Origin: an uncultured Siphonobacter sp.
GTDB taxonomy: Bacteria > Bacteroidota > Bacteroidia > Cytophagales > Spirosomataceae
DNA length: 64,000 nucleotides
Assembly: GCA_913775095.1 (NCBI GenBank)
Contig: CAJYIW010000019.1
Span: 248,001 to 312,000, forward strand
Reading direction: 5' to 3'
The notes beneath the pieces were generated by a model. It had not been told where the DNA came from. It was given only the letters and a program-made list of their open reading frames with translations, and did not search any database. How positions within the stretch are numbered: position 1 is the first letter of the stretch; every line of letters starts with the position of its first letter. The position numbers were made by a program, and so were the translations under genes. Below, piece by piece: positions 31,364-39,215 of the stretch.

Positions 31364-31621
31364 ATGAACATTATTGATCGAATCAATGCGTATTGTTTCA
31401 GCCACGGCGTTCGATACTCAGACAAACGAAATCAGGTCGCTTTAGTCTTGGAACGAACGCAGCGGGCCATGGATGCCGAGCAGATTTGGCTTCATATGAA
31501 AGAAGAACAGTTTACGATGAGTATTGGAGCGGTTTACCTTTCGTTGAACTGGCTGGTAGAGGCCGGATTCATTGAGAAAAAGCTGATGGAAGACCGGAAA
31601 GCCGTCTTTGCGGTCTTATAA
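31364..31621 (+). CDS. Fur-like winged-helix protein lacking the C-terminal metal-binding domain
   Basis: The 85-residue protein matches only the DNA-binding half of Fur/Zur/PerR: HGVRYSDKRNQVALVLERTQ (helix 1-2), MDAEQIWLHMKEEQFTMSIG (helices 2-3) and AVYLSLNWLVEAGFIEKKL (recognition helix and wing; TVYRTL in Fur becomes AVYLSL). The usual dimerisation domain with HxH and CxxC is missing; the stop at 31619 is followed directly by the terminator of the minus-strand small RNA. It starts 22 bp after the TonB receptor. It may be a natural mini-regulator or a truncated Fur; loss of metal sensing is expected either way. Confidence 0.7.
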   Translation: MNIIDRINAYCFSHGVRYSDKRNQVALVLERTQRAMDAEQIWLHMKEEQFTMSIGAVYLSLNWLVEAGFIEKKLMEDRKAVFAVL

Positions 31622-31704
31622 AAAAAGCCCCCATGAATCACGGGAGCTTTTAAAATCCAAACAGGCAATCCTGTGCAAAGATTATCTGTTCAACCTTCAA
31701 CCTA
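31621..31704 (-). ncRNA. Candidate small RNA A
   Basis: On the minus strand a full promoter (TTG at 31738-31740, 18-bp spacer, TATATTTG at 31712-31719) is followed by about 84 nt without an open frame, ending in AAAAGCUCCC-GUGAUUCAU-GGGGGCUUUU and a U tract. The body contains AUAGGUUGAAGGUUGAACAG, matched in candidate small RNA B at 33.9 kb. The terminator loop is identical to that of B while the stem differs with pairing kept. Confidence 0.6.
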
Positions 31705-31711
31705 TCTGTTA

Positions 31712-31773
31712 CAAATATAGCATGACGTATAGACTTACAAAAGAGATTTCTATGAACTGTAAACTTCGTACGT
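31712..31773 (-). promoter_or_regulatory. Promoter of small RNA A with conserved upstream element
   Basis: TATATTTG (31712-31719), TTG (31738-31740) and a 27-bp element at 31747-31773 containing ACAGTTCATAGAAA on the minus strand. The same element lies at the same distance from the -7 box of small RNA B. Confidence 0.6.
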
Positions 31774-32080
31774 CCAATGGCTCATTCGATCGGTTTTTTA
31801 GAATTTAGCGGTAAAAATTTTCATATTCCGCTATTAATAGGTATTATTTATAGGAATATCAGTAAATTCTATCGGCTTTGCTGAGCCCGTTTTTGTACAT
31901 CAGTACCCCTAAGCAGGATCAGTTAACAGGAAGCTAACCGTTACCCTTTTTCAGGGATGGAAAACCAGTGCGTCCCCTGAATTGGGGATTGATCAGGGAA
32001 GGTTTTTGAAAGACTTTTGTGAACCGAATGCAGCCGGGAAAACCAATGACTTATTCACCAATCTATGATCAGCCTTTACT
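31774..32080. other. Gene-free AT-rich region
   Basis: This stretch separates the small RNA A promoter from the lipoprotein gene. It is AT-rich, and I see no coding frame and no hairpin. The lipoprotein promoter must lie in it. Confidence 0.4.
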
Positions 32081-32344
32081 ATGAAAAAGCTCTTGAGTGC
32101 AGGAGTAGTACTGGGATTACTTTTAACCGGATGCTCAAAAAAAGAAAGTATCATCGCGAACAATTGTGACAACGAAGCCCGGAAAGTGTCAAACGCGGCC
32201 AATGCCTACGTCGCCAGTCCCACCAAGGCTAATTGTGAGGCTTACAAAAAGACCATCAATGATGCCCTGAAGAATTGCCCGAACTACTACAGCGGCCTTA
32301 GCAGACAGACTCTGGAAGATTTTAATAATACCGTTTGTAATTAA
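32081..32344 (+). CDS. Small lipoprotein
   Basis: The 87-residue protein has a lipoprotein signal (KKLLSAGVVLGLLLTGC, lipobox LTGC), so the mature form is about 70 residues, anchored by Cys. The rest has four further cysteines (NNCDNEARK, NCEAYKK, NCPNYYSG, VCN) and is helical. I do not recognise the family. It lies between the two candidate small RNAs and upstream of the COG0523 gene, with a terminator between. Confidence 0.75.
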   Translation: MKKLLSAGVVLGLLLTGCSKKESIIANNCDNEARKVSNAANAYVASPTKANCEAYKKTINDALKNCPNYYSGLSRQTLEDFNNTVCN

Positions 32345-32362
32345 ATAGAAGTAGATAGGGGT

Positions 32363-32397
32363 AAAGTCGGCGTTCCTTTCGGATCACCGACTTTTTT
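32363..32397 (+). terminator. Intrinsic terminator of the lipoprotein gene
   Basis: AAAGTCGG and CCGACTTTTTT pair around a 16-nt loop. Confidence 0.8.
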
Positions 32398-32528
32398 ATT
32401 TTCATTTAAAGGATCTCGCTCGCTGTTTCAAAACAGACTTTCCGGGAACAGGTGCAACCGTTCCCAATGCGACTGAGAAGCGGAGGATCGAAGAAAGGAA
32501 AAGAAATCAAAACGCTATATTTTCTAAT

Positions 32529-32575
32529 TAATGCAACAATGTTGCATTATGGATTATATTTGCAACATTGTTGCA
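32529..32575 (+). promoter_or_regulatory. Promoter with two Fur/Zur-type palindromes
   Basis: TGCAACAATGTTGCA (32532-32546, within a 21-bp symmetric region) and TGCAACATTGTTGCA (32561-32575) are two 7-1-7 inverted repeats with centres 29 bp apart. The -7 box TATATTTG (32555-32562) lies between them and overlaps the second. This layout lets a Fur-family dimer pair block the promoter. Confidence 0.8.
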
Positions 32576-32605
32576 TTTAATAATCGAGTAAAACGTTTTG
32601 ATCCG

Positions 32606-33811
32606 ATGAAAAAACTTCCCGTGACGGTGCTTAGTGGCTTTTTGGGAGCCGGTAAAACCAGTTTGCTGAATTACATCCTTCACCATAAACACGGCCTGAA
32701 GGTAGCGGTGATCGTTAATGACATGAGTGAAGTGAACGTCGATGCTCAGACGGTAGCTTCCCAGAACGTACTTTCCCGAACCGAAGAGAAGCTGGTAGAA
32801 ATGTCCAACGGCTGCATTTGCTGTACGCTTCGCGAGGATCTGATGATTGAAGTCGAGAAACTGGCCCGCGACGGGCGTTTTGATTACCTCCTCATTGAAT
32901 CGACGGGTATATCAGAGCCCTTACCCGTAGCTCAAACCTTCAGTTATGTCGATGAGCAGATGGGGATTGATTTGTCGAAGTACAGTCAGCTGGACACGCT
33001 GGTAACGGTGGTGGATGCCTTCAATTTTGCCCGGGATTTTGGTTCTATTGATACCGTTCGCAGCCGAAGACTGAATCGGGAAGACCCGGCCGATACGCGA
33101 ACGATTGTCAATCTGTTAACCGATCAGATTGAATTTGCCAATGTGATTGTGCTCAATAAAACTGATTTGGTAACGCCCGAGCGGCTGGGTGAATTAAAAG
33201 CGATCCTGAACAAACTCAATCCTCAGGCCCGGCTCGTTGAATCGAGCTTCGGTCAGGTGGAACCTCAGCACATCCTTCATACGGGCCTGTTTAATTTCGA
33301 AGAATCAGCGGAATCTGAAAACTGGATTGCCGAACTCGAAAAGGGTCATCACACGCCCGAAACGGAAGAGTACGGCATTAGCTCCTTTGTTTTCAGGGAT
33401 TCGAGACCGCTGCATCCCCAGCGATTCTGGGATTATATTTCCGAGGAATGGCCTGCGGGAGTGATCCGCTCGAAAGGATTATTCTGGCTGGCCTCGCGAC
33501 CGTCTAAAGCCCTGAGCTGGGGACAGGCGGGAGGATCGCTTCGGGCGGAACCCGCCGGAACTTGGTGGGCGGCCATTCCCGAGAAAGAGCGATTGTATTA
33601 CCCGGCTTACCTGGAAAACGAGTTACGCATCCGTCAACGCTGGCACCCGGAGTTTGGGGATCGGATGAATGAATTAGTGATTATCGGACAGGACTTACTC
33701 AAACAGCAAATCCTGCGGGAACTGGAAACCTGTCTTTGCACGGCAACGGAGATTCGTCAGATGGCATCCGGGATGAACTTCCGGGATCCTTTTCCAAAAT
33801 GGGAAGAGTAA
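32606..33811 (+). CDS. COG0523 (CobW/ZigA-type) GTP-binding metal chaperone
   Basis: The 401-residue protein has Walker A VLSGFLGAGKTSLLNYIL, the metal site SNGCICCTLREDL (CxCC), the switch ESTGISEPLPV, and the NKxD-type IVLNKTDLV. A C-terminal CobW_C domain follows. COG0523 proteins bind GTP and deliver Zn or other metals to client enzymes. ATG 32606 was chosen as the start; the earlier frame opening at 32531 lies inside the operator. Two palindromes of Fur/Zur type at the promoter (32529-32575) suggest induction on zinc shortage, the usual setting for ZigA-type members. Zinc is the inference; nickel or cobalt cannot be excluded. Confidence 0.9.
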   Translation: MKKLPVTVLSGFLGAGKTSLLNYILHHKHGLKVAVIVNDMSEVNVDAQTVASQNVLSRTEEKLVEMSNGCICCTLREDLMIEVEKLARDGRFDYLLIESTGISEPLPVAQTFSYVDEQMGIDLSKYSQLDTLVTVVDAFNFARDFGSIDTVRSRRLNREDPADTRTIVNLLTDQIEFANVIVLNKTDLVTPERLGELKAILNKLNPQARLVESSFGQVEPQHILHTGLFNFEESAESENWIAELEKGHHTPETEEYGISSFVFRDSRPLHPQRFWDYISEEWPAGVIRSKGLFWLASRPSKALSWGQAGGSLRAEPAGTWWAAIPEKERLYYPAYLENELRIRQRWHPEFGDRMNELVIIGQDLLKQQILRELETCLCTATEIRQMASGMNFRDPFPKWEE

Positions 33812-33909
33812 AATAGAAACTTTCTAAGAATAGGGCAGTCTGGGCCTTATAACGCCAAAACCGATGAATATTTGGTTTGAAGAGAAGTTAGGTGCGTAGG
33901 CAGGAACAT

Positions 33910-33978
33910 AAAAAACTCCTTCATGAATCACGAAGGAGTTTCCTGCTTAACCTCTAAACCTATGTGTCTAAACCGTTT
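33910..33978 (-). ncRNA. Candidate small RNA B
   Basis: On the minus strand TACTTTTG (33986-33993) is a perfect TAnnTTTG box. The transcript of about 69 nt has AUAGGUUUAGAGGUUAAGCA in its body and ends in AAACUCCUUC-GUGAUUCAU-GAAGGAGUUU and a U tract. The 9-nt loop equals that of small RNA A, the stems differ by paired changes, and the AGGUU-rich body is shared. No open reading frame is present. Confidence 0.6.
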
Positions 33979-33985
33979 GATGATT

Positions 33986-34047
33986 CAAAAGTACACCAGA
34001 GCCCTGACATGGAGTTAGCTTTTCTATGAACTGTTAACTTTATACGT
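33986..34047 (-). promoter_or_regulatory. Promoter of small RNA B with conserved upstream element
   Basis: TACTTTTG at 33986-33993 and a 27-bp element at 34021-34047 containing ACAGTTCATAGAAA on the minus strand. It is exactly 27 bp upstream of the -7 box, as in small RNA A. No TTG -33 box is seen here. Confidence 0.6.
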
Positions 34048-34133
34048 TAGTTGGTAGGATTTAACCATTAAATGAAATAATCACTTTTATATTCATTTGA
34101 TTATAGGTTTAGAAAGGTGATAAGTTATTAAAA

Positions 34134-34301
34134 ATGAAAAGGTTAGTAAATGCCGACCCGAACTGCGTTCCGACGGTTACCCCCCCAGAGAGAAGCTTAG
34201 TAATTCCGATGGTCAGGAATGCTGGGAAGGCAGGGAAGAGAAGAGGCGTGGAAGGTGATCCATCAAAGTCGGAAGAACCGAAAGAAGACGAATCTTCCTG
34301 A
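34134..34301 (+). CDS. Possible 55-residue protein
   Basis: ATG 34134 opens a frame of 55 codons ending at TGA 34299. It starts MKRLVNADPNCVPTV and continues through a Lys/Arg-rich middle (NAGKAGKRRGVEG) to a very acidic end (EEPKEDESS). AAAGGTG lies about 15 bp upstream. Codon use is not tested and no family is recognised; the base composition differs from the AT-rich flanks, which is the main reason to report it. Confidence 0.35.
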   Translation: MKRLVNADPNCVPTVTPPERSLVIPMVRNAGKAGKRRGVEGDPSKSEEPKEDESS

Positions 34302-38801: not shown

Positions 38802-38845
38802 CAATGGGTGTAAATCTACTAACGAATAGATTTACGGTCTTACTG

Positions 38846-39215
38846 TGGAGACGGAGGGATTCGAACCCTCGTCCAGAACAGGGACGCCACGCGTCTTCTA
38901 CATGCTTAGTTGTCCTTAAATTGTCGGGAACTAATCAGGTCGACAACGAACCGAATTAATCCCGTATTCGCTGGTACAGATAGAGCTCAGCGAAATCGGC
39001 TCCTCCGACACTACCTTTCGACGTCCCGAACTCCGACCCAGTAGTGTGATGGTTCGGCGGAACGATGGCTAATGGTTAATCCTCCGGATTAAGCAGCCAT
39101 AGCGTAGCTATTGTTGCCAGCTATTGTTTTAGAAGAGTTTTATACGGAAGGTTCTTCCAACTTCCGACATGCTTACACCCGCAACCTCAGCCCGCTGTCA
39201 ATACCCGTCGTCCCC
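38846..39215 (-). ncRNA. ssrA: tmRNA (ssrA)
   Basis: The 3' tRNA-like end (GAGGGTTCGAATCCCTC and CGTCTCC-A) pairs with the 5' GGGGACG at 39209-39215, giving the acceptor stem. The tag frame at 39089-39118 on the minus strand reads GGC AAC AAT AGC TAC GCT ATG GCT GCT TAA, a tag of G-N-N-S-Y-A-M-A-A. This ends in the degradation-type AMAA rather than the usual ALAA. tmRNA rescues stalled ribosomes with SmpB. The length of about 370 nt is normal. Confidence 0.95.

Follow-up and report, generated by a model that had tools for sequence, protein, structure and literature searches.

An apparently undescribed multicopy small RNA family of Spirosomataceae with a seed complementary to start codons in Siphonobacter

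Introduction

Do two short minus-strand units that share a terminator loop belong to a conserved RNA family, and if so, what would such RNAs do? The question is raised by a 64,000-nt stretch of contig CAJYIW010000019.1, hereafter the window, which comes from an uncultured Siphonobacter sp. (Spirosomataceae) whose genome is referred to as G000. A sequence-only reading of the window had singled out the two units, here called A and B, as related small RNAs (sRNAs). The family to which they belong, its conservation, its promoter and terminator anatomy, its multicopy and tandem layout and the complementarity of its seed to start codons can all be read directly in the DNA. We propose, with a probability of roughly two in three, that A and B are members of a multicopy family of trans-acting sRNAs of the Spirosomataceae that would repress nutrient-acquisition mRNAs at the start codon, in the manner of the FopS RNAs of Bacteroides.

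To our knowledge, most of what is known of post-transcriptional control in Bacteroidota comes from Bacteroides. In other phyla, sibling sRNAs such as Qrr, OmrA/B and LhrC exist as several copies that share a seed and have promoters of their own, and several of them are Hfq-dependent; we know of no homology between them and the present family. Literature searches turned up no description of this family, which we take to be real and which is apparently undescribed.

Results

Both transcription units were confirmed in the sequence at the positions that had been claimed. On the minus strand, to which all coordinates of A and B refer, the predicted transcript of A occupies 31620..31706 (~87 nt, with its putative start ~5–6 nt past the −7 box) and that of B 33910..33981 (~72 nt, start site likewise putative). 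The promoter box said to be common to the two was also found, as TATATTTG at 31712..31719 for A and TACTTTTG at 33986..33993 for B. The ends had been described correctly as well: each unit closes with a terminator hairpin and T run, at 31620..31651 in A, where it overlaps the stop codon of a Fur-like open reading frame (ORF), and at 33910..33941 in B, with identical GUGAUUCAU loops on differing stems. The seed of A is GATAGGTTGAAGGTTGAA (31689..31706), and the 22 nt surrounding it recur at one other site in all six Siphonobacter genomes. That of B is CATAGGTTTAGAGGTTAAG (33946..33964), whose core is invariant in nine genera and complementary to start codons. Both RNAs folded below all of their shuffles (z −3.51 for A and −6.09 for B; 0/200 shuffles as low).

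Further copies were found in the six Siphonobacter genomes searched (G000–G005). Using a 163-base query containing A, we detected a second occurrence of 22 nt from its 5' body in every genome. This site, E (C27:60684), lies just downstream of an acyl-carrier-protein-like gene and runs into an unrelated terminator. An orthologue of A was present in G005 (E-value 1.4e-58, 91% identity), and orthologues of B in G005, G002, G001 and G003; the similarity search found none for B in G004. The 18-mer ATAGGTTTAGAGGTTAAG of the B seed recurred exactly at two other places in G000, namely C (G000:C2:261869-261929, minus strand) and D (G000:C19:240510-240568, minus strand, ~7.4 kb outside the window). With F (C24:479189), the copies of this genome are A, B, C, D, E and F; both E and F are present in all six genomes.

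We then searched related genomes with a covariance model, R1, built from 12 rows of Siphonobacter copies only. A and B, being rows of the model, matched it by construction (31616-31706, 60.0 bits; 33906-33964, 78.9 bits). At E ≤ 1e-4, R1 matched 62 of 222 genomes of the family, in 10 of its 36 genera, nine of which are absent from the model; the genera with copies include Siphonobacter, Aquirufa, Flectobacillus, Arcicella, Pseudarcicella and Sandaracinomonas. Such a search was the test that the sequence-only reading had set itself, and it returned copies across the GTDB family. When the threshold was relaxed to E ≤ 0.1, 125 of the 222 genomes matched, and the 63 with matches only between 1e-4 and 0.1 were not counted as members. 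The strict seed occurred in 89 of 109 R1 matches, 64 of them distinct (58 sources chosen for having hits; model rows included). Elsewhere in the family, other genera gave weaker matches (L103, L104, L105 and L108) that have variants of an AGGTT repeat before terminators and are possibly distant relatives with drifted seeds.

When one copy per genus was aligned for nine genera, a 30-nt block, TTTTCATAGTNAAATAGGTTTAGAGGTTAA, containing AUAGGUUUAGAGGUUAA, was invariant except for one position (N); upstream of it and in the stems of the terminators, the copies differed. The aligned copy lay on the same strand as pth and 0.46–1.42 kb downstream of it in seven of the nine genera, the arrangement in G032 being read from contig L230. 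This linkage was not seen in G096, with no pth within the 9 kb examined, or in G015, where the contig ends. Copies were also found in tandem: six in G006, six in G032, three in G010 and two each in G059, G034 and G015. Among 65 stretches with an exact seed, 31 had it downstream of pth; some of the 65 belong to unrelated organisms, Pelagibacteraceae among them, and were treated as matches by chance, not all of them checked. Two contigs titled Arcicella (L208, L267) have three seeds downstream of pth and, at a distance of several kb, one more in the opposite orientation.

Scattered seed matches seemed to be antisense to start codons, and complementarity to starts was therefore tested. With up to three mismatches, the pattern TTAACCTCTAAACCTATG had 69 matches in the six Siphonobacter genomes, compared with 28 for the reversed pattern. 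Fifteen of the 69 were the sRNA genes themselves. Among the 54 others, 35 kept the ATG of the start complement UUAACCUCUAAACCUAUG, and in 30 this ATG opened an ORF with a length of 60 codons or more. A control pattern with the prefix reversed gave 19 matches, one of them at an ORF start. A second control, in which AAACCTATG was kept and the remainder permuted, gave 14 matches, six at ORF starts by the same rule, or four once two with long upstream frames, apparently internal, were excluded. Expectation from composition, based on 126 unselected starts and an assumed ~5000 genes per genome, was ~3.9 for the real pattern and ~1.2 for each control; among 2000 shuffled seeds it reached at most 9.5 under the same assumption about gene number.

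We ran Pfam on 24 of the 30 predicted targets, leaving out six apparent orthologues, and a family was assigned to 22 of the 24. The assignments, largely related to nutrients, were TonB plug/SusC-like proteins (four), SusD, GH95 (L056), CBM35, a PQQ dehydrogenase, a sugar transporter (MFS), a ROK kinase, EamA, a secretory lipase, two esterase-like proteins, a nucleoside hydrolase, an ADP-ribosylglycohydrolase, a purple acid phosphatase, MacB, an aminotransferase IV, a histidine kinase, DUF7709 and a protein of sulphur transport. The SusC-type starts complementary to the seed belong to the TonB-plug/CarbopepD_reg_2 genes L137, L145, L183 and L138, accompanied by the SusD gene L177; L174, outside the Pfam scan, is orthologous to L137 as judged from the N-terminus. 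The theme of the predicted targets thus appears to be nutrient uptake and breakdown, if not exclusively. RNAduplex gave energies of −15.9 to −34.6 kcal/mol for B, C and D against five start regions of G000, a range obtained without a shuffled control.

In three species (L336, L328 and L335, at G000:C2:459582, G002:C22:123336 and G005:C65:101469), we noticed a stretch, GTTCAACCTTCAA, that is the complement of most of the A-class seed. It adjoins the 3' end of a gene guessed to encode a response regulator, and in L335 it lies ahead of an ORF of 69 codons as well. It may be a sponge or a target of A.

Upstream of their promoters, A and B have in common a 26-bp element, ACGTAYRAAGTTWACAGTTCATAGAA, which the sequence-only reading had not mentioned. 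It lies at 31748..31773 for A and 34022..34047 for B, and its distance to the −7 box is exactly 28 bp in A, B and C of G000. Across 13 copies of A, B or C type from five species, the element (0–5 mismatches) was separated from the −7 box by 28 bp in nine copies and by 29 bp in two; in the remaining two, A2 copies from G001 and G003, the best matches had seven mismatches and lay at 49 and 28 bp. Within the fetched loci, as distinct from whole genomes, matches with up to four mismatches occurred only before members of the family, and alignment of the loci showed no such element before D. The fixed spacing indicates an activator site, and the element is probably the site through which A, B and C would be activated. 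The element of C is apparently doubled in L020 and L021 (G005:C204 and G002:C30), with a second, weaker ACGTATAAGGTACCGTTC-like copy farther upstream.

The terminator loop proved to be a poor guide. Its 11-mer, CGTGATTCATG, has three copies genome-wide, where uniform chance gives 2.7, and the third sits within an ORF that reads as rhamnose-isomerase-like. Being at chance frequency and once inside a coding gene, the loop is weak evidence by itself, and we rejected the exact 11-mer as a defining feature of the family; the stems and loops of paralogues D, E and F are unrelated. Covariation in the terminator was strong on paper: across 12 rows, nine of 13 pairs, with 23 cells, were changed on both sides, and 0/500 shuffles scored as high. 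We did not rely on it as proof of a family, because any intrinsic terminators keep their stems paired and unrelated ones would behave alike. The conserved family that the sequence-only reading had inferred thus holds, since copies occur in ten genera of the family, but not for the reason it gave, paired stems around a fixed loop. What goes beyond chance is the combination of features, the upstream element at its fixed spacing and conservation in other species, and the conserved part is the seed-bearing body, with the upstream element in addition for A, B and C.

Outside the family the picture was different. At E ≤ 0.01, R1 matched 45 of 395 genomes of the class, G000 included, and four genomes of the same family in that set had no match. 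In a rescan of 17 loci from the class search and seven of the 65 exact-seed stretches, ten alignments were inspected: two were L243, L344 kept AAUAGGUUUAGA, L349 kept AUAGGUU, and the remainder looked like generic AAA...UUU terminators. As these outside alignments were mostly generic terminators, we make no claim for the family beyond Spirosomataceae. L243, from a contig titled Cellulophaga sp. BC115SP, has four copies by pth and resembles Flectobacillus; the organism name may be wrong. In three loci from three species of one genus in another family (L345, L346 and L348, from G361, G246 and G422), the AATTGCTTAAGAGCTGAAAA body ahead of a terminator is nearly the same; this may be a further conserved leader or small RNA.

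The Rfam comparison that had been suggested for A and B gave no known family at their loci; the relatives come from the R1 search. At the gathering threshold, the whole window yielded only a tmRNA gene (38843-39215, minus strand) and two tRNAs. At E ≤ 5, nothing in 31500-34200 reached its threshold, and neither did anything at E ≤ 1 in six loci of the family, where the sole Bacteroides sRNA among the matches listed, BTnc231, scored 24.0 of 80.4 bits.

A and B bracket a small lipoprotein-like ORF and a COG0523/CobW gene, as had been noted, and the order is the same in the sister species G005. The guess attached to this arrangement, that the RNAs would regulate metal or envelope functions by way of these neighbours, finds no support: in two species the B orthologue is next to none of the eight genes of the window that were tested, and most of the predicted targets are nutrient genes elsewhere. 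The Fur-like ORF (31364-31621, 85 aa) is convergent with A and matches the FUR profile only over positions 2-72 of 121. Two near-identical palindromes, TGCAACAWTGTTGCA, lie at 32532-32577, 29 bp apart from start to start, directly before the COG0523/CobW gene; they resemble a Zur- or Fur-type operator.

Discussion

In the mechanism that we propose, each RNA would be a short transcript whose 5' part carries the seed (AUAGGUUUAGAGGUUAA for the main class and AUAGGUUGAAGGUUGAAC for the A class) and whose end is formed by an intrinsic terminator. The seed would, in Siphonobacter, pair with the mRNA from about −15 to +3, the start codon included, mostly in nutrient-acquisition genes, and this pairing would block translation initiation. 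A, B and C would be turned on jointly through their common upstream activator site, and D, by pth, would be the conserved core copy, differently driven. Transcription, repression, the signal and the activator are the parts of this scheme that we infer.

The closest parallel is FopS of Bacteroides thetaiotaomicron. According to PMC11697453, FopS is a family of paralogous sRNAs with 14 copies of ~65–70 nt, each with a single-stranded 5' seed and a terminator, and one member is derived from a 3' untranslated region (3'UTR). Its pairing sites surround the start codons of mRNAs encoding SusC and glycoside hydrolases, and FopS-10 blocks translation in vitro (PMC11697453). The present family resembles that description in its multiple copies, its layout of seed and terminator and its start-codon complementarity to SusC-like mRNAs. 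Unlike FopS, it belongs to another bacterial order, has tandem copies downstream of pth, an upstream element before A, B and C, and two seed classes. It also has no Rfam match, although PMC11697453 reports deposition of FopS there; the presence of the FopS model in the Rfam copy searched is unconfirmed. The family would work like FopS; membership of the FopS family is not supported by Rfam. GibS of the same species, whose seeds pair with the translation initiation regions of metabolic genes, is one sRNA with two seeds, R1 and R2, as PMC11697453 describes it, in contrast to the many copies with one seed found here.

Among other explanations, the one that survives best is that an RNA-binding protein, such as an RRM protein of the RbpB type, recognizes the conserved body, and that the RNAs would hold or titrate this protein through a motif of two AGGUU units. 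Two such units, spaced by differing letters, are retained in both seed classes, the element also stands before terminators downstream of protein genes, and RbpB binds FopS in Bacteroides (PMC11697453). We nevertheless consider this unlikely, as a protein site leaves unexplained the full AUG-containing complement on ~30 Siphonobacter start codons; it may also coexist with base pairing. It is less probable still that UUAACCUCUAAACCUAUG is favoured at starts for translation itself, the match to the sRNAs being a by-product. The control that kept AAACCTATG with its 5' half scrambled did still fall at ORF starts in 4–6 of 14 matches, but the full complement gave 30 starts against ~3.9 expected from composition, and such a preference would leave the conservation of the sRNA seed unexplained. 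That A and B might be nothing more than ordinary terminators or the remains of repeats, with no regulatory role, seems very improbable: although stems pair by nature, the loop is at chance frequency and the model hits inspected outside the family were mostly generic, the seed, −7 box and upstream element are kept across species, and the body across genera, while the stems change. Local action of A and B on the Fur-like, lipoprotein or COG0523 genes in metal homeostasis, which their flanking of these genes in G000 and G005 and the palindromic boxes of COG0523 might suggest, is hardly credible, given that 12–13 kb around the B orthologue in G001 and G003 contain none of the eight window genes tested and that 31 of the 65 exact-seed stretches have the seed downstream of pth instead.

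Several observations weigh against repression at start codons by a FopS-like family. Of the 54 matches outside the sRNA genes, 24 lie away from ORF starts, and the independent targets number fewer than 30 because at least seven of the 30 starts are orthologues of others listed. A itself fits less well than its siblings. Its energies against the same five start regions were −9.8 to −15.8 kcal/mol, with the shortest query (25 nt compared with 45 for B), and a target search with the A-class seed gave no convincing targets. In the predicted folds, the mean unpaired probability of the seed was 0.30 in A and 0.45 in B, compared with 0.76–0.82 in C, D and E; a single-stranded 5' seed with an intrinsic terminator is clear in C, D and E, and the seeds of A and B are partly to mostly paired. 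Across 10 genomes of six genera outside Siphonobacter, there was no overall excess of target-pattern matches (132, sRNA copies included, vs 173 for the reversed pattern). G010 alone showed a clear excess (15 vs 6 reversed), and its paralogue pair L420 and L421 is no more than suggestive as targets; outside Siphonobacter, 19 of 40 matches ending in ATG were ORF starts. Within the family, 97 of 222 genomes have no R1 match at E ≤ 0.1, in addition to the 63 with weak matches. The direction of regulation, finally, is suggested by the pairing position only.

With these points taken into account, start-codon repression by a FopS-like sRNA family is the reading that we prefer. A wider version of it, to which we would give somewhat less than even odds, is a family-wide RNA network in Cytophagales in which one seed has spread into separately promoted sRNAs, tandem arrays and 3'UTRs and covers the AUG to silence nutrient-acquisition genes. 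Whole sets of genes would have joined this network by evolving the same 18-nt start region, and the network, in which A, B and C would have an activator of their own, would be a counterpart of FopS in a different order of Bacteroidota, having arisen independently or from a deep common ancestor.

An environmental Cytophagales family whose seed is clear, whose targets are predicted and whose hosts include Siphonobacter, Flectobacillus, Aquirufa and Arcicella makes it directly testable whether start-codon control of SusC-type uptake by sRNAs is a phylum-wide trait. Its tandem copies would provide a natural dosage series, and the common upstream element may serve as a handle on the activator and its signal.

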